DNA from: an uncultured Bacteriovoracaceae bacterium
Lineage (GTDB): Bacteria > Bdellovibrionota > Bacteriovoracia > Bacteriovoracales > Bacteriovoracaceae
Assembly: GCA_950054155.1 (NCBI GenBank)
Contig: CATLOT010000010.1
Coordinates: 1 to 64,000 of the forward strand
Direction of reading: 5' to 3'
DNA length: 64,000 bases
Positions within the stretch are counted from its first letter, which is position 1. Each line of letters opens with the position of its first letter. Both the position numbers and the translations under genes were made by a program. This document shows, in pieces, positions 1,472-16,400 of this stretch. Under the pieces are notes generated by a model. The model was not told the origin of the DNA. It did not search any database and worked only from the letters and a program-made list of their open reading frames with translations.

Positions 1472-2425
1472 GTGATCAGATATCGGTGGATTACAAATCC
1501 TGTTACAGTTTTTATTTTTAGCCTCATTGCACTAGGCTCCAGCCTGTGGCTCTATATCCACTCTTACCTGCGGGTCAATGACGCCTTTCAAGAGTTTGTC
1601 AGAAAGAGAAATCTTGACCCAAGTCCTCTTTTAGAAACCGAAACATGGGTGATGATTCTCATCGTCTCGGTTCTTGTCGCTCTTATTCTTATTGGGGTGA
1701 TTATTATCTTTGTTTACTATCAAAAGATGATTCAGCTCTATCGGATGCAACAAAACTTTATCAATGGATTTACTCACGAACTGAAAACCCCCATTGCAAG
1801 CCTGCGGCTCTTTCTCGATACCTTTTCTCGCCATAAACTCGATGAGGAGTCGCAAAAGAAATATCTAGGCTACATGATTCGCGATACAGAGCGCTTAAGT
1901 GATAACGTCAATCAGATTCTCAACCTCGCCCGCATTGAAGATAAGAAGTATGAGGCCCAGTGGGAAGTCGGTGATATCCGCCTCTTTATTCAAAATTGGC
2001 TGCAAAAGACAAGTTACTGGAGTGAGGATGCCGATGTCATTTTTATGGAGCAAGTAGGCCAACCCCTCTATGTGAAATATGATATTAATCTCTTGCCCCT
2101 CGTCTTTATGAACTTGGTCAATAATGCCCAAATTCACAATAAGAGCGACAGACCACGAGTTGAAATTTCTGCGCGCCTCCAAGGAAAGAATGTCACTGTG
2201 AGTTTTAAAGATAATGGCATTGGAATTTCTAAGGCCGAGGCCAAGAAGGTCTTTCGAAAATTCTATCAAGTTAAAAAGGCAGCAAAGGGCAGTGGGATTG
2301 GTCTTTATTTGGTGCAAACAGTGATGCGCTTTCATAAGGGGAGTGTCCGCCTCTTTAGCGAAGGCGAGGAAAGTGGCACTACTTTTATTCTCAGTTTTCC
2401 TTTTTGTGACGAGGTCTCCCCATGA
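1472..2425 (+). CDS. Membrane sensor histidine kinase
   Basis: A 317-aa two-component sensor. Two membrane helices (about residues 12-32 and 58-83) bracket a short external loop of about 25 residues, too small for a classic ligand domain, so it may sense within the membrane. The HisKA H-box has H102 in FTHELKTPIAS. The ATPase domain shows the N-box (NLVNNAQ), the G1 box DNGIGI and the G2 box GSGIGLYLVQ. The start is GTG at 1472, with AGGAG at 1461-1465 giving good spacing. The last four bases overlap the ATG of the response regulator, so the pair is translationally coupled. Signal unknown. Confidence 0.92.
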   Translation: MIRYRWITNPVTVFIFSLIALGSSLWLYIHSYLRVNDAFQEFVRKRNLDPSPLLETETWVMILIVSVLVALILIGVIIIFVYYQKMIQLYRMQQNFINGFTHELKTPIASLRLFLDTFSRHKLDEESQKKYLGYMIRDTERLSDNVNQILNLARIEDKKYEAQWEVGDIRLFIQNWLQKTSYWSEDADVIFMEQVGQPLYVKYDINLLPLVFMNLVNNAQIHNKSDRPRVEISARLQGKNVTVSFKDNGIGISKAEAKKVFRKFYQVKKAAKGSGIGLYLVQTVMRFHKGSVRLFSEGEESGTTFILSFPFCDEVSP

Positions 2426-3129
2426 AACCAAGAATTTTAGTCATTGAAGATGAACGCCATATTGCAGAGGGACTCAAGATTAATTTGGAACTCGCGGGTT
2501 ACGATGTCACTGTCGCAGTCAATGGAAAGGTCGGAATTCAAAAGTGGGAGGAAGTGAAGCCTCAACTGATTCTCCTTGATATAATGATGCCTGAGCTTGA
2601 TGGCCATGGGGTCCTTGAGAGAGTGAGGCGAAAGGATTCAAAGATTCCCATTCTCATTCTCTCGGCAAAGAACGCCAGCGTGGACAAGGTTAAGGCCTTT
2701 CACGGGGGAGTGGATGATTATCTTGGAAAGCCATTTAGTGTCGAAGAGCTTCTTCTACGGGTTGAGCGCCTCCTCCTGAGGGCGAGTTGGAATAAAGAAG
2801 AAAACGGCGTGAGTGAGCTCTATGAGTTTGGGCCTCACCGCATTGATTTCTCACTCTTTAAAGCGACCACCCCCGATGGGATGATCGACCTCACTGAACA
2901 GGAGGCCAAGATCTTGCGCTTCTTTTTCACCCATCCTCATAAGGCCCTCACAAGGGCTGAGCTTCTTGAAGAGGGTTGGGGCTATGCCGAGGATATTAAC
3001 ACCAGAACCCTCGATAATTTTATGGTGCGCTTTAGAAAGTACTTTGAAAGTGATCCCAAAAAGCCCAAGTATTTTTGTTCAGTACGAGGGGTTGGCTATA
3101 TTTTTGATCCCGAGGGTAAGGGGCGCTAG
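2422..3129 (+). CDS. OmpR-family response regulator
   Basis: A 235-aa DNA-binding regulator and partner of the kinase just upstream (ATGA overlap). The receiver domain (about 1-120) has the acidic pair E9-D10, phospho-acceptor D53 in LLDIMMPELDG and conserved K103 in GKPF. The C-terminal winged helix (about 135-232) carries the OmpR/PhoB features LTEQEAKILRFF, the RTLDNFMVRFRKYF recognition helix and the RGVGYIF wing. Targets cannot be read from the sequence; the following HD-GYP-like gene (44 nt downstream) may be co-transcribed. Confidence 0.93.
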   Translation: MKPRILVIEDERHIAEGLKINLELAGYDVTVAVNGKVGIQKWEEVKPQLILLDIMMPELDGHGVLERVRRKDSKIPILILSAKNASVDKVKAFHGGVDDYLGKPFSVEELLLRVERLLLRASWNKEENGVSELYEFGPHRIDFSLFKATTPDGMIDLTEQEAKILRFFFTHPHKALTRAELLEEGWGYAEDINTRTLDNFMVRFRKYFESDPKKPKYFCSVRGVGYIFDPEGKGR

Positions 3130-7143: not shown

Positions 7144-7805
7144 TGATCACCCTTGATCACTTCTCTTTGCTTGAAGGGCGTGTGAGAGAGGCCGCTCCTG
7201 CTCTTGTGCTCTTTGATCTTGACGGCACTCTTATCAATAGTGAGCCACTGCATATTCAGGCCATCGTCTATACTCTCACTGAGTTTGACCAAACGGTGAG
7301 TCTTTCTGATTTAATACAACTTCAGGCCAAGGGAATAAACGAGAAAATGGTGGGGGTTAATGACTCTCGCGTCTATGAGATTATTGCCGAGGAATTAGGG
7401 GTCACTTATCAGCATAGTATTGATGAATTAATCGAACAGAAAAATGATTTTCTTAAAGGGGAGGAAGTTCTCGCCCTCTTAAAGAGTGCAAAGTGCTGTG
7501 CTCCTGAATTGATGAATGAACTTAGAAAACTTAAGGATCAAGGCCACCGCTTAGGTCTTGTCAGTGCCAGTCAAAGAGAGTTTGTCGATCATGTTGTGAA
7601 TTCTCTTGGATGGCAAGAGCTCTTTGAGTTGGTTATTTGCCGAGAAGACACTGAGTTTACCAAACCTAATCCTGCTCCCTATCTAAAGGCCTTTGAATTG
7701 ACCCAGAGTGTGGCCCATGAAGTTCTGATCTTTGAAGATAGTGACACAGGTTTAAAGAGTGCTCTTGATAGTGGGGCTCAAGTGACAAAAGTGAGTTGGT
7801 ACTAG
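7143..7805 (+). CDS. HAD-superfamily phosphatase (beta-phosphoglucomutase-like subfamily)
   Basis: A 220-aa cytosolic hydrolase. Motif I is LFDLDGTL, with nucleophile D25 and acid/base D27. Motif II is SASQRE, the lysine motif is KPNPAPYLKAF, and the C-terminal acidic motif is FEDSDTGLKSAL. The helical cap sits between motifs I and II (about 35-110). The substrate is probably a small sugar phosphate or nucleotide but is not readable. It is translationally coupled to msrA. Its TAG stop shares the palindrome CTAG (7802-7805) with the stop of the convergent radical SAM gene. Confidence 0.88.
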   Translation: MITLDHFSLLEGRVREAAPALVLFDLDGTLINSEPLHIQAIVYTLTEFDQTVSLSDLIQLQAKGINEKMVGVNDSRVYEIIAEELGVTYQHSIDELIEQKNDFLKGEEVLALLKSAKCCAPELMNELRKLKDQGHRLGLVSASQREFVDHVVNSLGWQELFELVICREDTEFTKPNPAPYLKAFELTQSVAHEVLIFEDSDTGLKSALDSGAQVTKVSWY

Positions 7806-8560
7806 GCCTTAAAATAGTCTTCTCCAGGAAGCTTGGTTTGAATACGATTGCAACCAGCACAAGTCTTATAGTGATGGCGCAATCCCTTCTTGAGATCCCT
7901 TCTCAATTTCTTATACTCTTCACTATTCCAAATTTCTTTAAGAGGTGTCTGAAAGAGATTACCCATTTCATGGTTTTGAAAGAAGTCTTCAAAGCAAGGG
8001 AGAATATTCCCTTCTACGGTGATGGTGACGAGAAAGTCAGGGATCATGCAGGGAAGAAGATGCTCTGCTCCTCCTCCAATATCCGGTAGGGCACCACCGC
8101 GATTGGTTTTCTTGAGGGCACTATGCTCTTGAAAGCGGATGGCCTTTTGAATGGTGGGGCTCAGATCATCTTTGAAGTCTTCAACCAGCAGCTTTTTGAT
8201 GCCAATATGTTTAGTGATAATAAATTCATCAACGCCACACTCATAGAGCGTGATGAGTTTTTCTTGAGTGAGCTTGGTGCCATTGGTGTAGAGTTCGATC
8301 TTAGTGTCAGGGAGCTTCTTTTTAGTGCGCCTTAAGATTTCTTCAAAGTCAGGATGAAGGGTAGGCTCACCATAGAACTCGTGACTTAAGCGGCCAACAA
8401 AGCCCATTTCCCTAAGTTGATCAAGGATGAGGTCATAATTTTCAAGGGACATCTCGCCCTTTTCCTTGCGTTCAAATTCACGATTGGGGCAATAGGAACA
8501 GGCCAAGTTGCATTGGCTATTGATTTCAATTTCAACGATTTTAAAGAGTTCCTCTGACAT
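7802..8560 (-). CDS. Radical SAM protein with SPASM-like C-terminus
   Basis: A 252-aa iron-sulfur enzyme. The radical SAM motif CNLACSYC supplies C17, C21 and C24 for the 4Fe-4S cluster, and YGEPTLHPDFEEIL is the second conserved element. The C-terminal part has a cysteine in GNILPCFED and CAGCN (C234, C237), as in SPASM/twitch auxiliary-cluster domains of enzymes that modify peptides or handle electron transfer. Substrate unknown. It lies 32 nt downstream of hemN and may be read from the haem operon. However, a TATAAT (8572-8567 on the minus strand) lies 6 nt before its ATG, suggesting its own leaderless transcript. No precursor-peptide gene is adjacent. Confidence 0.85.
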   Translation of the reverse strand: MSEELFKIVEIEINSQCNLACSYCPNREFERKEKGEMSLENYDLILDQLREMGFVGRLSHEFYGEPTLHPDFEEILRRTKKKLPDTKIELYTNGTKLTQEKLITLYECGVDEFIITKHIGIKKLLVEDFKDDLSPTIQKAIRFQEHSALKKTNRGGALPDIGGGAEHLLPCMIPDFLVTITVEGNILPCFEDFFQNHEMGNLFQTPLKEIWNSEEYKKLRRDLKKGLRHHYKTCAGCNRIQTKLPGEDYFKA

Positions 8561-8592: not shown

Positions 8593-9861
8593 CTATTTTC
8601 CCTCTAGGCGCTGAAGGATATTTTTAAGGAAAAAGCGGCCATAGGGGCTGATTTCAAGGAAATCGGCCTTAGGAATAAACCATAATTCCTGCTCTTTGGG
8701 GCTAAAGAGGCTGATCTTGTCAGCTTTGAGGATTCCTCGTTGAACCGCATCTCTGATATATCCCCTAAAAGAAATCTCCTCTTCACTCATCTTATGGGTC
8801 TTAATAAGGGGAGAGTGGCCTTTCGTATTTAGAGTGTGAAGGTACTTATCAAGAATTTTAACATTTTGCGTGTGGTAGTCTCCAATATGAGAGAGGGCCC
8901 CTACTCCAAGACCCACCATATCCCCAAGGGAGTGAGGAAAGAGACCACACACGTAGCGGCTTAGGTGCTTTTCTTTAAAAGCTTGAAAGAGCCCACCGTC
9001 TTTCGATATAAAATGGCCAAAGGCGAAGTGTTCAAAATTGGCCTCGGTGAGGGCATCGACGCCCTCTTCAAAGAGCGCATATTTTTCAGGGAGTTCAGGC
9101 AGAGTAAAGTCACCAAAGGCATTTTGGTAGGTTTCAAGCCAGCCCACTTTGGCCAGGGGATAGAAGCTTACCCAATGAAGGGGGTAGTCTTTAAGTGGCC
9201 TTCTCCACTCTCTCATTGTTTCCCTCTTCTGATGGGGTAGGCCCCAAATGAGATCGATACCCGCTTGATCAGAGGGAGTGAGAAGAGAGAGCGCGCGCTC
9301 AATATCAGTTAGGCTTTGGTGGCGATTGACGTTTGCCGTAATGTCTTCATTAAAATCTTGCACCCCAAAGCTAAAGCGCTTGATGCCAAGCTCGTGGCAA
9401 AGGGCTTGAAACTCTTGAGTAAAGCTTTGAGGACTCGCCTCAGTCAGGCCGTCTTTGATGCCGTGGGGGAGTTCTGATTGAAGGAACTTAAGAAGCTCTT
9501 CTTGGGCCAGGGGATGAAGCACACTTGGGGTGCCACCGCCAAAAATAAGGGATTCTAGGGGGTGGGCCTTGAGTTCTTCAATAAAGGCGCCACTTTGAGG
9601 TGAGGCCTTAAGAAGTTCCCACTCTGCTTTGAGCGCCTTAATATAGTCGAGGTGATCTTCGGCCCTTTTAGAGATTCTGATATTACAGCCACAAAAGGTG
9701 CAAAGATTTTCGCAAAAGGGCAGATGAATATAAAGAGAGGCCTGCCCTTTAAAACTAAAGGGAGCGTCCGGCTTACTTTTCTTCCAGGACTTCGCACTCG
9801 GGTAATAGGCGTAGCGATTACCCGGGGAATGATAGTGAAGAAGCTCTTCTTTAATACTCAA
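8593..9861 (-). CDS. hemN: Oxygen-independent coproporphyrinogen III oxidase/HemN-family radical SAM
   Basis: A 422-aa radical SAM enzyme that decarboxylates coproporphyrinogen III to protoporphyrinogen IX without oxygen. The cluster motif is CENLCTFCGC (C50, C54, C57, plus C59). The fourth cysteine in CGC is the HemN signature and argues against the HemW chaperone. Further family motifs include FGGGTPSVL, RFSFGVQDFN and GIDLIWGLPHQ. The protein is somewhat shorter than E. coli HemN (457 aa). It starts at TTG 9861 behind AGGAAAAG and overlaps the end of hemE by 11 nt, so it is part of the haem operon. Confidence 0.88.
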   Translation of the reverse strand: MSIKEELLHYHSPGNRYAYYPSAKSWKKSKPDAPFSFKGQASLYIHLPFCENLCTFCGCNIRISKRAEDHLDYIKALKAEWELLKASPQSGAFIEELKAHPLESLIFGGGTPSVLHPLAQEELLKFLQSELPHGIKDGLTEASPQSFTQEFQALCHELGIKRFSFGVQDFNEDITANVNRHQSLTDIERALSLLTPSDQAGIDLIWGLPHQKRETMREWRRPLKDYPLHWVSFYPLAKVGWLETYQNAFGDFTLPELPEKYALFEEGVDALTEANFEHFAFGHFISKDGGLFQAFKEKHLSRYVCGLFPHSLGDMVGLGVGALSHIGDYHTQNVKILDKYLHTLNTKGHSPLIKTHKMSEEEISFRGYIRDAVQRGILKADKISLFSPKEQELWFIPKADFLEISPYGRFFLKNILQRLEGK

Positions 9862-10891
9862 ACTTTTCCTGAATAAGAGCGACCGCGTTTCTCACATTCT
9901 CTTCAGGAGTGTGCTGAAGAACACCGTGACCGAGTCCACAAATCCAGCGTGACAGATCAGCGCCACTCGTTGAAATCTCTTGCCACCACTTAAGGAGCTT
10001 TTCTTCTAAGATTGGCCAAGGCAGGTGCAGGTGAGCGGGATCAAAGTTTCCTTGAATCATATAGTCTTTTGAAAATTCTTTAAGAACATCAGCGATATTA
10101 AAGCGCCAGTCAACGCCAAGGACATCAATACAGTCTTCTTGGAGTTCGCGCAGGTATTCTACATGAGTGAATTTTGAATAATAAATGAGCTTGGTATCAG
10201 GATTTCTTCTTTTAAACTCCTGAGCAATCCTTTTGATCTGCGGCACGATAAAGTCACGGTAGTCTTCTTTTGTACACTCGCCAGCGGCGGTATCAAAGAG
10301 GCACATGCCATCGGCCCCACCAGCGACTTGGATGTCCATTTCTGTGAGGACATTTTCAAAGAGGACTTCGTTAAAGCCTTGCCAGCGACCATCATAGAAT
10401 CCCTTCTTTGGGTTAATGAGGTTGCCACTGTGACCTCCATCAACAGCGTAAGTGTAAAGAGTCCAGGGAGCACCAACAAATCCCAGGAGAGTCTTATTGG
10501 CAGGAAGTGTCTCTTTGAGAAGCTTACACGCTTCTCCTTGAAAGGCGTAGAAAGTCTTGGCGTCTTCGATGACTTTAAGATCTTTCATTTTCTCTGGTGA
10601 GTCCAGGTGAGTATCAAGCTTAGGTCCTGGTGCATACTTAAGGCCTAGTCCCATTTGTTCAAGAGGAAAGAGAAGGTCACTAAAGAGAATGGCCGCATCA
10701 AATTTAAAATCACGAATCGGTCCCATGGTGACTTCACAAGCAAGCTCTGGGCCTTTACAAAGGGCCATGAAATCATGGTCCTTCTTCATGCCCTGGTAGT
10801 GCGCGTGGTAGCGACCCGCCTGGCGCATAAACCATACTGGTACCGCCGTTTTGCCATTTTCTTTCACTGTTCTGTCGTTAAATAGACCCAT
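9851..10891 (-). CDS. hemE: Uroporphyrinogen decarboxylase
   Basis: A 346-aa cytosolic enzyme converting uroporphyrinogen III to coproporphyrinogen III. Family hallmarks are PVWFMRQAGRY near residue 19, the ILFSDLLFPLEQMG aspartate region, GFVGAPWTLYTYAVDGG and GLGHGVLQHTP near the C-terminus. Length is normal. GAGG is 9 nt before the ATG. It starts 4 nt after the response regulator gene and overlaps hemN downstream, so the two-component genes sit inside the hem operon. Confidence 0.96.
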   Translation of the reverse strand: MGLFNDRTVKENGKTAVPVWFMRQAGRYHAHYQGMKKDHDFMALCKGPELACEVTMGPIRDFKFDAAILFSDLLFPLEQMGLGLKYAPGPKLDTHLDSPEKMKDLKVIEDAKTFYAFQGEACKLLKETLPANKTLLGFVGAPWTLYTYAVDGGHSGNLINPKKGFYDGRWQGFNEVLFENVLTEMDIQVAGGADGMCLFDTAAGECTKEDYRDFIVPQIKRIAQEFKRRNPDTKLIYYSKFTHVEYLRELQEDCIDVLGVDWRFNIADVLKEFSKDYMIQGNFDPAHLHLPWPILEEKLLKWWQEISTSGADLSRWICGLGHGVLQHTPEENVRNAVALIQEKFEY

Positions 10892-10895
10892 TTTC

Positions 10896-11585
10896 TTAAC
10901 CTCGAGTATTGAGTTTATATCCGATGCCGCGGATAGATTGTATTTCTATTGATTGGTCTGAGTCGGTCTCACACCACTTTCTTAATTTCACAATATAATT
11001 ATCAACCGTACGGTTGCTGGGGTATTTATCCTCGCCCCAGATTTGAGCAATCAGCTCTTCACGGCTAACCACCTGGCCGCGCTTTTGGTAGAGCATCTTT
11101 AAAATGGCGCATTCCTTTTGGCCAAGTTCAACACTCTTGCCATGAGCATCTTCCACTTGAAAGCGGGCAAACCAAATTTTGAGCCTGCCATGTTCAATAA
11201 GGTCACTCTCTTGATGCACTTCCTTGGCAAATTGCAAAGACTTCTCAAGGCGCAATGTGAGCTCCTTAAGAGCAAAGGGCTTGGTGATATAGTCTTCGGC
11301 GCCAATTTCAAGACCCTCTAGTTTTGTATCGGGGTCATTAAGAGCGGAGAGAAAGAGGAGAAGAAAATCCTTTCTCTTTTCTCTAAGCTCCTTTGCGAGG
11401 TCAAGCCCAGAGCCATCGGGCAGCCCTATATCCATTAAAATGATATTGGGATGATGTTCACTAAAAAGAGCGCGCGCCTCACTCACACTTTGCGCGAGGT
11501 GGGTGCTAAAGCCCTTACTTGTTAAATATTCTGAAAGCGTAAAGCCTAGGTTGTCTTCATCTTCAACGATAAGGATTGTATTCAA
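10896..11585 (-). CDS. OmpR-family response regulator inside the haem operon
   Basis: A 229-aa regulator with receiver E8-D9-E10, phospho-acceptor D52 in LMDIGLPDGSG, K102 in TKPF, and a C-terminal winged helix (ELGQKECAILKMLY, RTVDNYIVKLRKW, RGIGYKL). It overlaps the kinase gene by 4 nt (ATGA) and is 4 nt from hemE. The position implies co-expression with haem synthesis enzymes. It may autoregulate the operon or respond to haem, redox or porphyrin state, but that is inference. Confidence 0.92.
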   Translation of the reverse strand: MNTILIVEDEDNLGFTLSEYLTSKGFSTHLAQSVSEARALFSEHHPNIILMDIGLPDGSGLDLAKELREKRKDFLLLFLSALNDPDTKLEGLEIGAEDYITKPFALKELTLRLEKSLQFAKEVHQESDLIEHGRLKIWFARFQVEDAHGKSVELGQKECAILKMLYQKRGQVVSREELIAQIWGEDKYPSNRTVDNYIVKLRKWCETDSDQSIEIQSIRGIGYKLNTRG

Positions 11586-12460
11586 AGCTCATCCCCTTTG
11601 TTAAAGAGAAAGGAGTAGTGCATATGAGGCACCGTTGTAATCGTAAGGCTTCCCTTCATTTTTTGGGTGAGCTTTAAGATAAGGTAGAGGCCGATACCTG
11701 AACCTTTCTTTGAATTATGCTTATAGAAGAGCTTTCCTAGCTTTTGGGTGTCACCTGTGAACTCCCCATCATCTTCATAATGAAGAGCAATTTGGCCACC
11801 TTGCTCCTTTGCCCTTATCTTCGCTCTTTTTTGGGTGCTATGATTAAGAGTGTTTTCAAAGAGATTTCTTAGAATAAGATTAAAGGCAAATTCATCCCCA
11901 AGAATTTCAAGATCTTCCTTAATATCAAGTGTTACTTCAAGTTCAATATCCCAGCGCTTTAGGGCGTTCTTACACAGCTCAAGGAGATTGAGTTGAGTGA
12001 GATTAAGATTACCGCCGCCTTCAAGGCGAGACAGTTGTAAAATCTTATCCATCTGAGTTTCAAGTTTATTGGTATCTTGAATGAGGCGATTAACAAGGGT
12101 TGTGGAGCGCTGATCACATTTTGAATCATCAAGTTCTTCTTTAAGAACTTCCGTTTGCAAACGAATGGAAGCCAGTGGTGTCTTAAGCTCATGAGTCATG
12201 CTTGCAAAGAAGGCCTGGAGTCCCTTTGTCTTCTTTTGATCCTTTATATAGAGAAAGAGCAGACTCGCGCTTAAGAGCACGAGAAGAGTAAAGAAGGTCG
12301 CTCCCTCCCACTTCACCATCGCTGCCACTTTTGAACCCGCAAACGGTTCAAGCTTCTCACTATATTGGATAATGAGATAGAGCCACCATGAGCCCAGAGC
12401 AAGGAGCAAGGCCGCATAGAGAAAGCTTAAAATAAGAAAGAGCTTACTCGTTCTTTTCAT
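11582..12460 (-). CDS. Membrane sensor histidine kinase inside the haem operon
   Basis: A 292-aa sensor with two membrane helices (about 6-31 and 54-72) and only about 22 residues outside, suggesting intramembrane sensing. The H-box is MTHELKTPLAS with H90. The N-box is NLFENTLNHS and the G2 box is GSGIGLYLIL. The G1 box is degenerate (DDGEF instead of DxGxG). Domain layout and size are close to the kinase at 1472-2425, so the two are probably paralogues. Its ATG overlaps the hemL stop (TAATG), a strong sign of one transcript. Confidence 0.9.
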   Translation of the reverse strand: MKRTSKLFLILSFLYAALLLALGSWWLYLIIQYSEKLEPFAGSKVAAMVKWEGATFFTLLVLLSASLLFLYIKDQKKTKGLQAFFASMTHELKTPLASIRLQTEVLKEELDDSKCDQRSTTLVNRLIQDTNKLETQMDKILQLSRLEGGGNLNLTQLNLLELCKNALKRWDIELEVTLDIKEDLEILGDEFAFNLILRNLFENTLNHSTQKRAKIRAKEQGGQIALHYEDDGEFTGDTQKLGKLFYKHNSKKGSGIGLYLILKLTQKMKGSLTITTVPHMHYSFLFNKGDEL

Positions 12461-13725
12461 TAGCTAAAGAGCCTCTCCTTAAGTTCGCTTTGCACACTTT
12501 CATCGTGGGCCAAGGAGACAAATCCGACTTCATAAGCATTGGGCGCTAAATAGATCCCTTTATTAAGAAGAATCTCAAAGAGGTCCTTAAATTGTGGCCC
12601 TAAATCAGCGCTGATTTCAGAGGCCTTAGTGGGAAGAAAGTCGGGATGAATCCAAAAGAGACTTCCTTCGTGAATCATCTGAAGATTCTTAAAGCGACCA
12701 TTTTCAAAAGTCTCAAACCATTCTTTAAAGATGGCGACAATACTTTCTGTGTAAGTTGAAAGCTTCTGATACGCTTCAGGCGTAAGTTTCTTAAGGGTTT
12801 CAAGTCCTCCAACCATGGCAAGAGGATTAGCGCTCAATGTTCCCGCCTGATAGACGCCACCAAGAGGCGCGAGGTTTTCCATCACTTTACTACTTGAGGC
12901 CACGGCCCCCACTGGAAGACCACCGCCAATAATTTTTCCATAGGTCACCATATCAGGTTTGATTCCCGTTTTTTGGGCCATCCCGCGAAATCCCATACGA
13001 AAGCCACTGATCACTTCATCAAAGAGAAGAAGAGCACCACTTTCATCACAGAGATCACGCAGTCCCTGCAGGAATTCTTGGGAGAGGGGGAGAAGACCAT
13101 TATTGGCCGGAAGGGGTTCCACGGCGATCAGGGCAACGTCATTAGGGTAGCGCTTTATAATGTCACGACAGCCCTCTAAGCCGCCAAGTTCCAAAATAAG
13201 GGTGCCCATAGAAAAACTAGCCGGTACCCAGGTGCTTGAGGCCTCAGCAGTTCCAGCGAGACCACTACCCGCTTTAATAAGAAGACTATCAAGGTGACCA
13301 TGATAGCAGCCATCAAATTTGATGATCTTCTTTCTGCCAGTCATTCCGCGCGCCAGGCGCACGGCCGTCATCACGGCCTCAGTTCCTGAGTTGACGAAGC
13401 GAATTTGCTCGATATGAGGTAGCCTCTCTGTCAGAAACTCAGCAAGTTTTAAACTATAGGGCTCACAAGCTCCATAAGACCAACCCTTTTCAAGCTGACC
13501 TTCAAGGGCCTTTTGAACATCTTCATTCTTATGGCCTAAGATAAGAGGACCAAAGCTCATGCAAAAATCGATATAGTCTTTATTGTCGACGTCCCAGATT
13601 TTGGCGCCTTTGGCCTTTTCAAAAAATCTTGGCGTCGTGTGAAGTCCTTTAAAGGAGCGCACAGGCGAGTGCACACCACCGGGGACAAGTTCTTTAGAGC
13701 GTTCAAAAAGTTGTTCTTGGTTCAT
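12460..13725 (-). CDS. hemL: Glutamate-1-semialdehyde 2,1-aminomutase
   Basis: A 421-aa PLP enzyme that makes 5-aminolevulinate from glutamate-1-semialdehyde, the second step of the C5 pathway. The PLP lysine is K264 in TYGKIIGGGLPVGA, D236 is in LLFDEVISGFR, and the family motifs SGTEAVMTAVRLAR and FDGCYHGHLDSLL are present. The start overlaps hemC-hemD by 4 nt (13722-13725) with AAGGAAG upstream. Confidence 0.97.
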   Translation of the reverse strand: MNQEQLFERSKELVPGGVHSPVRSFKGLHTTPRFFEKAKGAKIWDVDNKDYIDFCMSFGPLILGHKNEDVQKALEGQLEKGWSYGACEPYSLKLAEFLTERLPHIEQIRFVNSGTEAVMTAVRLARGMTGRKKIIKFDGCYHGHLDSLLIKAGSGLAGTAEASSTWVPASFSMGTLILELGGLEGCRDIIKRYPNDVALIAVEPLPANNGLLPLSQEFLQGLRDLCDESGALLLFDEVISGFRMGFRGMAQKTGIKPDMVTYGKIIGGGLPVGAVASSSKVMENLAPLGGVYQAGTLSANPLAMVGGLETLKKLTPEAYQKLSTYTESIVAIFKEWFETFENGRFKNLQMIHEGSLFWIHPDFLPTKASEISADLGPQFKDLFEILLNKGIYLAPNAYEVGFVSLAHDESVQSELKERLFS

Positions 13726-15368
13726 TGATTCTTCCTTAGCCAGTTCTTAAGTTCTGTCATCGTTGAAAAGTTAATGCGCTGATCTTTAGAGAGATCGCTG
13801 TCCTGATCAAGGCAGGCCGCTGTTTTTCCAAGGCCGCTGCCATGAAGGGCCTTAGGATTAAGTTTCGTATTCTCTTTAAACCACTGGTATTGAGTGGGTG
13901 AGGTCCAGTAGTAAAAGTCACAAGTTTCTAGGGAGCTTAAATAATCTTGATCCTCTTTGCTAACCTCTTTCTTATAGACACCGATGGTAGGTCCAAGATC
14001 ATTTCCCACTTCGTTATTGGTGATCACCTTCCAAGAAGTCTCACCCTTCATCAGTTTCACAAGCTCACTCTCTCGCAAGACCTTAAGGGTGCTCTCACCC
14101 AGACTGTCGGCAGAGCCGTTAACCCACAGACCCTTTGAAGCGAGGGCCTTCATGGTCTTATTGCCACTGGCCCAAAGTGAGTTCATCTCGAGGTGAAGAA
14201 GATCACTGCCATAGTCAACGGTGCTTGGACTTGTGAAGAAGTAGTCATGGGCGGTGTCGGTTGGAATGGCCTCTTTATAATTACAAGCTGTTTTGATAAA
14301 GACCTGATCTTTCTCAAGGGTGAGATCAAGTTCTTTAAAACTCTCTATTGTTGAAAGTCCGATAAAGGCCTTGCTTATTTTTGGATGCTGCTTTTTTTCT
14401 GTAATAAGAGAGAGCTCATTAATGATTTTGTTATCGGCTACACCTCTTAGACTTTGGCGCAGGAAACCTTCACCTTTACTCGCTGTGATGCCAACAGCGA
14501 GGTGGCAGCCACCTCCAAATTCTTGAAAGCGCTTTCTTTCAATTTTAACTTCTTCAATAGTGCGCTCATGATTGAGTTTATTGAGAATTTCCTTAAGTTC
14601 CTGGTGCCTTTTAAGACCTTGCTCACTTTGATCTACACTTTCCTCTAGGCACTCAATTCCAAGGGCACCTTGGCTCGCTGCCGCGGGAAATGTTGAGGTC
14701 GGAAGGATCATAAAATCAAAGTCATCAAGAAGACCGCCTAGGATTTCTCTGGGGTCACCATGCTTTTCAAAGGCTTCATTTTGATGGTCTGGCAGACCAA
14801 GGGCGAGTCTTTCAATGCCGGGTAGGGCAAGGACGATGGCATCAAAGGCACCATCCTTACACTTTTTAATTCTGGTATTCACATTCCCTCTTAGGGATTC
14901 TGTTTTCACCTTGAGTTCTTCACCATAGGGAAGATAGGGCGCAAGGTAGTTTTCAAGATTGGTCATGCGTCTTGGAGACGAGGTCCCCACCAGAACTTCA
15001 CTGCGTTTGCGACTTTGAAGTTCTTTCACCACACTCTTTCTCATGAGAAGGACGTCGTGGGGAAACTTTCTTTGCGTGATGGCCGCAAGCTCTATGCCAA
15101 TAGGTCTTTCACTTCCAAGATCTTTATAGCTGTGGACAACCAGATCGATTTCACCTTTTAAAAGGGCGGTATCAAGCTCCTTCGTGAAGAAGTCTTTGCC
15201 ATCCATTTGCCATAGGGGCTTTTCCGTATTCTCATCCCCCTCAGTTTTGATAATGATGAGTTCATAAGTAGCGTCACTCATTTCTTCTAATTGTTTTTTC
15301 ACTTGAAGGCATTGAGTGAGGGCGAGGAGGGAACCACGGGTTCCAATCTTAAAATGTTTCTTTTTCAT
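13722..15368 (-). CDS. hemC: HemC-HemD fusion: porphobilinogen deaminase + uroporphyrinogen III synthase
   Basis: A 548-aa fusion. The N-terminal ~310 residues are hydroxymethylbilane synthase: TRGSLLAL, catalytic D83 in HSYKDLGSERP, GTSSPRR, SLRGNVNTR, AASQGALGIE, and C288 in GGGCHLAVG, which carries the dipyrromethane cofactor. Residues about 330-548 match the weakly conserved HemD fold, with FFTSPSTVDY, YYWTSPTQYQWF and a C-terminal LHGSGLGKTAACL. Fusion would pass unstable hydroxymethylbilane directly to cyclisation. The HemD assignment rests on weak motifs plus context. The ATG lacks a Shine-Dalgarno sequence; TGC-TATAAA (minus strand, hexamer 15381-15376) lies 7 nt before it, so an internal leaderless start is possible. 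Confidence 0.87.
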   Translation of the reverse strand: MKKKHFKIGTRGSLLALTQCLQVKKQLEEMSDATYELIIIKTEGDENTEKPLWQMDGKDFFTKELDTALLKGEIDLVVHSYKDLGSERPIGIELAAITQRKFPHDVLLMRKSVVKELQSRKRSEVLVGTSSPRRMTNLENYLAPYLPYGEELKVKTESLRGNVNTRIKKCKDGAFDAIVLALPGIERLALGLPDHQNEAFEKHGDPREILGGLLDDFDFMILPTSTFPAAASQGALGIECLEESVDQSEQGLKRHQELKEILNKLNHERTIEEVKIERKRFQEFGGGCHLAVGITASKGEGFLRQSLRGVADNKIINELSLITEKKQHPKISKAFIGLSTIESFKELDLTLEKDQVFIKTACNYKEAIPTDTAHDYFFTSPSTVDYGSDLLHLEMNSLWASGNKTMKALASKGLWVNGSADSLGESTLKVLRESELVKLMKGETSWKVITNNEVGNDLGPTIGVYKKEVSKEDQDYLSSLETCDFYYWTSPTQYQWFKENTKLNPKALHGSGLGKTAACLDQDSDLSKDQRINFSTMTELKNWLRKNQ

Positions 15369-15397
15369 AGGTCGCTTTATAGCAAGGATGCTAGGGG

Positions 15398-16345
15398 TTA
15401 GGCAAAGAGGAGCTCATCCCAACCAAAAGGAATATTAATCGTAAAGTGCCCATTGCGATGCTCTGTGGCCTCTTCAATGGCACTAAGGGCCTGTTCAACT
15501 TTTTCACTCTTTTGGGCCGAATGCTCTTGGCCAATTTTAAAAACTTCTTCCAAAGAGTAGTAGCTCTTTTGTCCCTTTAGCCAGGTAAAAGGAGTGGGCT
15601 CACCGAGATCAACAAAGCACTCAAAGGGAGTGGGGTTAATCATGGGCTTAATAAAGGATTGGTCGGTACCAATGGTATTAAGAATAAAGCGCTCACCATA
15701 AATCTCATCACGCCTCTCCCACGGAAGAACCTCAATACCATAGGTTTTCTGTAGTTCGGCTACGCGTTCACTATTGCGGGCACAGAGAATGATAGTAAAG
15801 CGGCGGCGAGAGATCTTAATAAAGTCCTCGCTCAATTGACCGGAGCCAAGGACCACCACGCGCGCGCCAATTTTAGTTTTCTCACTTAAGATCTTGCGAG
15901 AAATGCCCGCATAAGTTTGCAGACCAATATTCTTAAGGTGCATTGAGCGGATATCTTTAGCGTCTTTAAAGAGCTTTTCAAGTACTGTTTGAATGAGGCG
16001 ATTGGGTTTTTCTGTCATCAAAAAAGCACCATAGGCTTCTTTGAATTGATGAACGATTTCATTTTCCCCAAGAATGCGGCTCTTAAGACCACAGATGGTT
16101 TGCAGTAAAAACTCATAGGCCTTAAGACCACTGTAAATTTCTGTCTTAATGGCTTCACTCTGCTTTTCTTGAGACGCGCTTTCAGAGAGACCTTCTAAAA
16201 TACGCTCGGGCTGACGGTTAAAACCAAGCATAAGAGTTCGCTGACAGGTCCTAAGAATGAAGACCTGTCCCTTGGCACGGGCATGAAGAAGCTCTTCAAG
16301 CTCAGGGCAGGGAAGACAATTGATGAGTTTTAAACCATTTAGCAT
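15398..16345 (-). CDS. hemA: Compact glutamyl-tRNA reductase
   Basis: First gene of the haem operon, reducing glutamyl-tRNA to glutamate-1-semialdehyde with NADPH. The catalytic motif RTCQR has C34 (family STCNR). The GLKSRILGENEIVHQFKEAYG block and a Rossmann motif VVVLGSGQLSEDF are clear. At 315 aa it is about 100 residues shorter than usual: the first helix region is trimmed, and the C-terminal dimerisation domain is reduced to a short tail. An in-frame TAA four codons upstream of the ATG rules out a longer N-terminus. No hemB, hemH or hemG/Y is present in the window. Confidence 0.87.
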   Translation of the reverse strand: MLNGLKLINCLPCPELEELLHARAKGQVFILRTCQRTLMLGFNRQPERILEGLSESASQEKQSEAIKTEIYSGLKAYEFLLQTICGLKSRILGENEIVHQFKEAYGAFLMTEKPNRLIQTVLEKLFKDAKDIRSMHLKNIGLQTYAGISRKILSEKTKIGARVVVLGSGQLSEDFIKISRRRFTIILCARNSERVAELQKTYGIEVLPWERRDEIYGERFILNTIGTDQSFIKPMINPTPFECFVDLGEPTPFTWLKGQKSYYSLEEVFKIGQEHSAQKSEKVEQALSAIEEATEHRNGHFTINIPFGWDELLFA

Positions 16346-16363
16346 GGGTGTAATTTAGCAAAG

Positions 16364-16400
16364 GTGGATCATGGAATTGTCACAGTTTTGTAGGATCCAC
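16364..16400. promoter_or_regulatory. Inverted repeat in the hemA / membrane-protein divergent region
   Basis: GTGGATC (16364-16370) and GATCCAC (16394-16400) form a perfect 7-bp inverted repeat with 23 nt between, 19 bp upstream of the hemA ATG. The spacing would suit a dimeric regulator, such as the OmpR-type protein encoded in the operon, or a transcript hairpin. No convincing -35/-10 pair was found here. Confidence 0.3.

Follow-up and report, generated by a model that had tools for sequence, protein, structure and literature searches.

A HemKR-type two-component system embedded in the heme biosynthesis operon of Bdellovibrionota, with a putative direct-repeat operator upstream of hemA

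The heme biosynthesis operon of an uncultured Bacteriovoracaceae bacterium (phylum Bdellovibrionota), related to predatory bacteria, contains a histidine kinase and a response regulator that are, in all probability, the orthologues of Leptospira HemK and HemR and act as a dedicated feedback regulator of their own operon, in which phospho-HemR would activate transcription and a metabolite of the heme pathway would switch the kinase to its phosphatase state. The operon lies in a stretch of 64,000 nucleotides that was analyzed as a whole (contig CATLOT010000010.1, positions 1 to 64,000; hereafter the window). The arrangement is genuine and functionally meaningful, and it represents the known HemKR type, one half-site of its box having diverged. 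Comparison of sequences provides the orthology, the conservation of the operon, the box upstream of hemA and its spacing to the -10 element, the joint loss of pair and box, and the invariant residues of the sensor.

The genes hemA, hemCD, hemL, the histidine kinase, a PhoB-type regulator, hemE and hemN form a contiguous series that spans positions 16345 to 8593 of the minus strand (Table 1). The order hemA, hemC-hemD, hemL, kinase, regulator, hemE, hemN given in the first-pass annotation was recovered, with all genes at their positions and in the matching families. The same annotation described the junctions as 4-nt overlaps or gaps of 4–29 nt, which is correct for most of them (hemA/hemCD, gap of 29 nt; hemCD/hemL, overlap of 4; kinase/regulator, overlap of 4; regulator/hemE, gap of 4) and not for hemL/kinase (overlap of 1) and hemE/hemN (overlap of 11). 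The product of hemN carries the HemN-like motif CENLCTFCGC, although its TIGR00538 score is below the cut-off. A radical SAM/SPASM gene follows on the same strand 32 nt past hemN, and the operon is probably one gene longer. In close relatives such a gene was also found after hemN, with high identity, in four of the loci compared (L029, L030, L034 and L039). For this protein the best named models all scored far below their cut-offs.

Table 1. Features of the hem operon and of the hemA promoter in the window.
Feature	Position	Strand	Evidence and remarks
hemA	15398-16345	(-)	Pfam GlutR_N 4.9e-16; short glutamyl-tRNA reductase, 315 aa
hemC-hemD	13722-15368	(-)	TIGR00212 6e-66, over cut-off; hydroxymethylbilane synthase with C-terminal extension
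hemL	12460-13725	(-)	NF000818, 495.6 bits, over cut-off; glutamate-1-semialdehyde aminomutase
hemK-type sensor histidine kinase	11582-12460	(-)	HisKA + HATPase_c; H90, T94; W25, W26; E52
hemR-type OmpR/PhoB response regulator	10896-11585	(-)	Response_reg + Trans_reg_C; D52
hemE, uroporphyrinogen decarboxylase	9851-10891	(-)	Pfam URO-D 8e-81
hemN, oxygen-independent coproporphyrinogen III oxidase-like	8593-9861	(-)	TIGR00538 4.6e-56, under the curated cut-off
Radical SAM/SPASM gene, probably the last of the operon	7802-8560	(-)	Pfam Radical_SAM + SPASM
hem-box direct repeat CTACA-AAACTG-TGACA (CTACAAAACTGTGACA), putative phospho-HemR site	16378-16393	(-)	Promoter position and spacer conserved
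-10 element TAAATT	16352-16357	(-)	20 nt downstream of the box; TANNNT peak in aligned-promoter columns 36-41

Two of the biosynthetic proteins share features with their Leptospira counterparts. The family model search gave no match to the hemD model in the hemCD product; the gene is still read as a hemC-hemD fusion because the equivalent Leptospira gene is annotated as encoding a bifunctional deaminase/uroporphyrinogen synthase. In HemA, Pfam detected the N-terminal GlutR domain only, with no match to the dimerization domain, and the protein is 30% identical to HemA of L. interrogans over 178 positions. HemA is thus reduced in both phyla (315 aa here; 289 aa in L. interrogans) and hemC-hemD is fused in both, hinting at a single origin of the whole operon in Leptospira and Bdellovibrionota.

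Orthology of the pair with HemK/HemR is well supported by the sequence comparisons. The kinase is 33% identical to that of L. interrogans over 293 positions (E 1e-46), which is nearly its full length and includes the membrane part, and the regulator is 38% identical over 221 positions (E 1e-52). As paralogue controls we used the other two-component pair of the window and seven of the remaining regulator loci of this genome, comparing pairwise scores. The Leptospira kinase scored 124 bits against the hem pair and 72 bits against the other window pair, the regulator 157 and 103 bits respectively, and at the seven further loci the Leptospira proteins scored below 72 and 103 bits. The best-matching paralogue among these, at 1472-3129 on the plus strand, consists of a kinase of 317 aa and an OmpR-type regulator of 235 aa. 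In a collection of plasmids (72,556 records), the sole strong match to the kinase was from Leptospira (E 8e-26), the next organism following at 3e-10. The named relatives recovered with the kinase were records of Bacteriovoracales, Halobacteriovoraceae and Bacteriovoracaceae, in keeping with a Bacteriovoracales-like genome. The best PDB match of the receiver domain was 4q7e (87 bits vs. 79 for ArcA), an entry entitled just “response regulator” that we take to be Leptospira HemR. The expected residues are also in place: D52 of the regulator aligns with D53 of L. interrogans, the phospho-accepting Asp of HemR, and is invariant in 61 sequences, and in the kinase the phospho-accepting histidine (H90) is present in 61 of 61 sequences and the phosphatase threonine at +4 (T94) in 98%.

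Among the characterized systems compared, Leptospira HemKR (Hklep/Rrlep; L. biflexa and L. interrogans) is therefore the best sequence relative of the pair, and the likeness extends to its setting. In both, the kinase and regulator genes overlap, the regulator is of the PhoB type, the kinase has two transmembrane helices without a sensor domain and a HisKA histidine with threonine at +4 (H98/T102 in L. biflexa), and a direct-repeat hem-box with a 6-nt spacer lies upstream of hemA. The order in L. interrogans is hemA-hemCD-hemB-hemL-kinase-regulator-hemE-hemN, in which hemB takes the position it also has in some Bdellovibrionota (L092-L098 and L105, where it lies between hemCD and hemL). The window differs in the low identity of the pair (33–38%), in the first half-site of the box, which is CTACA here and in most of its family, in lacking hemB from the operon and carrying the radical SAM gene after hemN, and in the lack of a detectable box at the hemB and hemH of this genome. 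HssRS, the heme-stress system of Gram-positive bacteria, is likewise a two-component system concerned with heme; it differs in the larger extracellular sensor domain of HssS and in controlling the HrtAB efflux pump instead of a hem operon.

About 60 stretches were compared for gene order, drawn from the family of the window and from at least eight further families of Bdellovibrionota. In almost every locus compared, hemA-hemCD-hemL-kinase-regulator-hemE follow each other on one strand, often with hemN next, and since at least nine families and dozens of genera share this arrangement it cannot be attributed to chance. Close relatives thus retain the pair inside the hem operon, and the absence from relatives that would have spoken against the first-pass annotation was not seen. 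The exceptions are loci truncated by contig ends; L072 and L098, where no hemA was found beside hemCD; the L048 genome and L212, where hemA and its box are several kilobases farther upstream; and G040, a genome whose operon is split. In L083, L084, L087-L090 and L102, hemB and hemA are transcribed divergently, which places the box between both genes. In G040 the kinase-regulator pair is divergent from hemA, and hemCD-hemL-hemE-hemN are located elsewhere in the genome; one box precedes hemA and a second lies about 110 nt before a gene read, from its sequence, as a probable ferrochelatase (hemH).

Kinase and pathway are also largely lost together. Within the window's family, 80 genomes have both kinase and hemE, 10 have neither and 7 are discordant (Fisher p 1.4e-8; counts made by hand from listings, and the test treats genomes as independent and ignores kinship and assembly incompleteness). 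A few genomes that have hemE lack the kinase, which weighs against the pair as dedicated regulator. Two of these discordant genomes belong to one genus (g18; G017 and G059, loci L219 and L220), where hemL abuts hemE and the pair is cleanly absent; the hem-box is absent from the 20-kb stretch of both. In two others (G019 and G025), hemE stands alone, with no other gene of this hem operon nearby.

The published Leptospira repeat served as the prior for a search upstream of hemA. After removal of near-duplicate loci, the pattern N[T/G]AC[A/G]-N6-TGACA (the relaxed first half-site of which was chosen after seeing the matches) was present on the sense strand ahead of hemA in all 56 loci, compared with an expected mean of 0.17 in composition-matched simulations, 0 on the opposite strand and 0–2 at other spacers from 3 to 11. 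The strict form (first half-site TGACA or CTACA) was found in 46 of the 56 loci vs. 0.04 expected. Because many loci were compared, the evidence for the target is stronger than one genome could give. Exact TGACA-N6-TGACA occurs in most other families and in some members of the window's family, which mostly has CTACA (or ATACA, GTACA, TTACA) as the first half-site. The window box matches the Leptospira consensus at 8 of 10 positions, with the 6-nt spacer and the second half-site exact; in L. interrogans, TGACACTTCTTTGACA is located 37 nt before hemA. G189, a genome from a different family that seemingly had the pair without the box, proved to carry the box with one mismatch (TGACCCTTCTATGACA). 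The operator is thus a well-supported candidate at the direct repeat of Table 1, predicted to be the target of the pair. The first-pass annotation had instead suggested the repeat at 16364-16400 as a possible shared operator. The arms of this inverted repeat (16364-16370/16394-16400) are not conserved in the aligned promoters, and the putative operator is rather the direct repeat enclosed between them.

In the aligned promoters a TANNNT -10-like element follows the box at a fixed distance of 20 nt. The box takes the place of the -35 element at an over-long distance from the -10 element, which suggests an activator-dependent promoter. The predicted transcription start, at about 16345, falls on the ATG of hemA and no Shine-Dalgarno sequence is present (16343-16357), so the hemA message may be leaderless; about a dozen relatives have the same spacing, and in several of the relatives the predicted start likewise coincides with the ATG. 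As a separate observation, residue 190 of the regulator is Ser with NTACA and Thr with NGACA first half-sites in the window's family (35 vs. 5 where the box was scored). This split is perfect inside the family and the rule fails in other families, and no recognition code is claimed.

The regulon beyond hemA is small or not resolvable by exact matches. In the 3.5-Mb genome there are just two exact CTACA-N6-TGACA sites, one at hemA and one that lies inside an ORF and was rejected as a regulon member, and no box at 9/10 or better was found at its own hemB and hemH loci. Sites lying before genes in relatives include those at hemA, in almost all genomes searched, and others 31 nt before the gene of a TonB-dependent receptor, 70 nt before that of a multiheme cytochrome c and 53 nt before that of a cytochrome c peroxidase. 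The box is thus present at hemA in all 56 loci and at some other genes of relatives, among them the probable hemH, and was not found at hemB and hemH of this genome; a regulon devoid of heme or respiration genes was not what we found. Exact-site counts in 16 relatives were often near the reversed-pattern control, so that single cases may be due to chance. The credible targets are the recurrent ones, i.e., hemA and a gene for a 181-aa membrane protein. This gene is divergent from a HEAT-repeat/Rieske gene pair, and its product has no Pfam or PDB relative. Six relatives, belonging to three genera, carry a box about 30–60 nt before it (L141, L144, L147, L199, L203, L206 and L209); the orthologue in the window's genome (L218) has none (best 7/10).

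The kinase had been described as having almost no periplasmic loop, and hydropathy and the AlphaFold model (helices 6-41 and 43-73; mean pLDDT 73, built from five sequences only) agree on a hairpin of two transmembrane helices with no periplasmic domain. In an alignment of 61 kinases (60 of Bdellovibrionota and that of L. interrogans), W25, W26 and E52 are the only invariant residues of the sensor half. The spacing between W26 and E52 ranges from 18 to 40 residues, and E52 invariably precedes the phospho-accepting histidine by exactly 38 residues, which would make residue 60 the conserved Glu in L. biflexa. This residue would lie inside the segment F31-S62 that was removed in a loop replacement in L. 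biflexa, where growth was still complemented and where, according to the primer sequence, the Trp residues were kept outside the replaced segment (PMC2266917). The cytoplasmic part of HemK is kinase-active alone (PMC11426443), and complementation of growth would therefore not reveal a lost off-switch. We tentatively suggest, as one possibility among others, that HemK represents a kinase class in which the whole two-helix hairpin is the input device and reads a heme-pathway metabolite in the membrane through W25, W26 and E52, the Glu being required for shutdown alone and not for the kinase-on state; the Glu is assigned to shutdown because the replacement would have lost it and growth as a readout is blind to this function.

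In the mechanism we propose, the membrane kinase would by default phosphorylate the regulator, dimers of which would bind the direct-repeat hem-box in the -35 place, 20 nt from the -10 element, and recruit RNA polymerase, so that hemA through hemN would be transcribed, the pair included. Accumulating heme-pathway metabolites would favor the phosphatase state of the two-helix sensor, at a site that, we infer, probably involves the invariant W25/W26 and E52; the regulator would be dephosphorylated and ALA synthesis would fall (negative feedback). Activation by phospho-HemR and shutdown by ALA are proposed by analogy, sign and signal being carried across phyla from Leptospira at 33–38% protein identity. 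L. biflexa mutants of the pair require heme or ALA and show lowered hemAEL expression (PMC2266917). Phospho-HemR binds TGACA-N6-TGACA, and in L. biflexa, the only species for which this is reported, ALA triggers the phosphatase activity of HemK, whereby HemR is dephosphorylated and HemKR is switched off (PMC11426443). Deletion of hemKR in L. biflexa did not significantly change the hemA operon, which indicates that other controls exist (PMC11426443). The suggestion that the pathway monitors itself through the embedded pair thus draws support from the orthology with Leptospira, the hem-boxes in 56 of 56 loci, the joint loss of pair and box, and the published shutdown by ALA (PMC11426443).

The nature of the signal allows a second reading, which we consider unlikely: the pair would be a true regulator of the hem operon through the hem-box, and the signal would be the redox or quinone state of the membrane (as for RegB/ArcB), with heme supply following respiration. 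A bare membrane hairpin with invariant Trp and Glu would suit such a sensor, as would the boxes that relatives carry before the membrane protein divergent from the HEAT-repeat/Rieske pair, the multiheme cytochrome and the cytochrome c peroxidase; however, the match to the RegB/PrrB model is weak (38 bits vs. a cut-off of 350) and covers generic kinase domains, and the Leptospira pair is shut off by ALA, not iron (PMC11426443). Of the signals listed in the first-pass annotation (membrane redox state, heme or porphyrin), a metabolite of the porphyrin pathway is thus the more likely and membrane redox is disfavored, on the strength of the Leptospira data. That the pair is a mere passenger of the operon (e.g., a phosphate or envelope regulator) controlling unrelated genes is highly improbable: operons can carry unrelated genes, and PhoB and CreC/PhoR are the best-matching named models, but these score far below their cut-offs, the hemA promoter has a conserved box, pair and pathway are lost together, and genus g18 lacks both box and pair.

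Feedback control by a HemKR orthologue, the reading we prefer, extends a known system. The same hem linkage was mentioned for Bdellovibrio bacteriovorus, of the same phylum, in 2008, without analysis and with data not shown (PMC2266917). New are the recurrence of the arrangement across nine families or more, the presence of the hem-box before hemA in each of 56 loci, the joint absence of pair and box in two relatives, and the three invariant sensor residues in 61 kinases. A literature search, which stopped short of the 2014 HemR paper, found no published description of the hem-box in Bdellovibrionota. HemKR thereby turns from a peculiarity of Leptospira into a system common to two phyla; its conserved target site allows regulons to be predicted, and natural deletions are at hand in which pair and box were lost together. 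W25, W26 and E52 are targets for mutation in studying how the heme pathway is read by a kinase that has no sensor domain.
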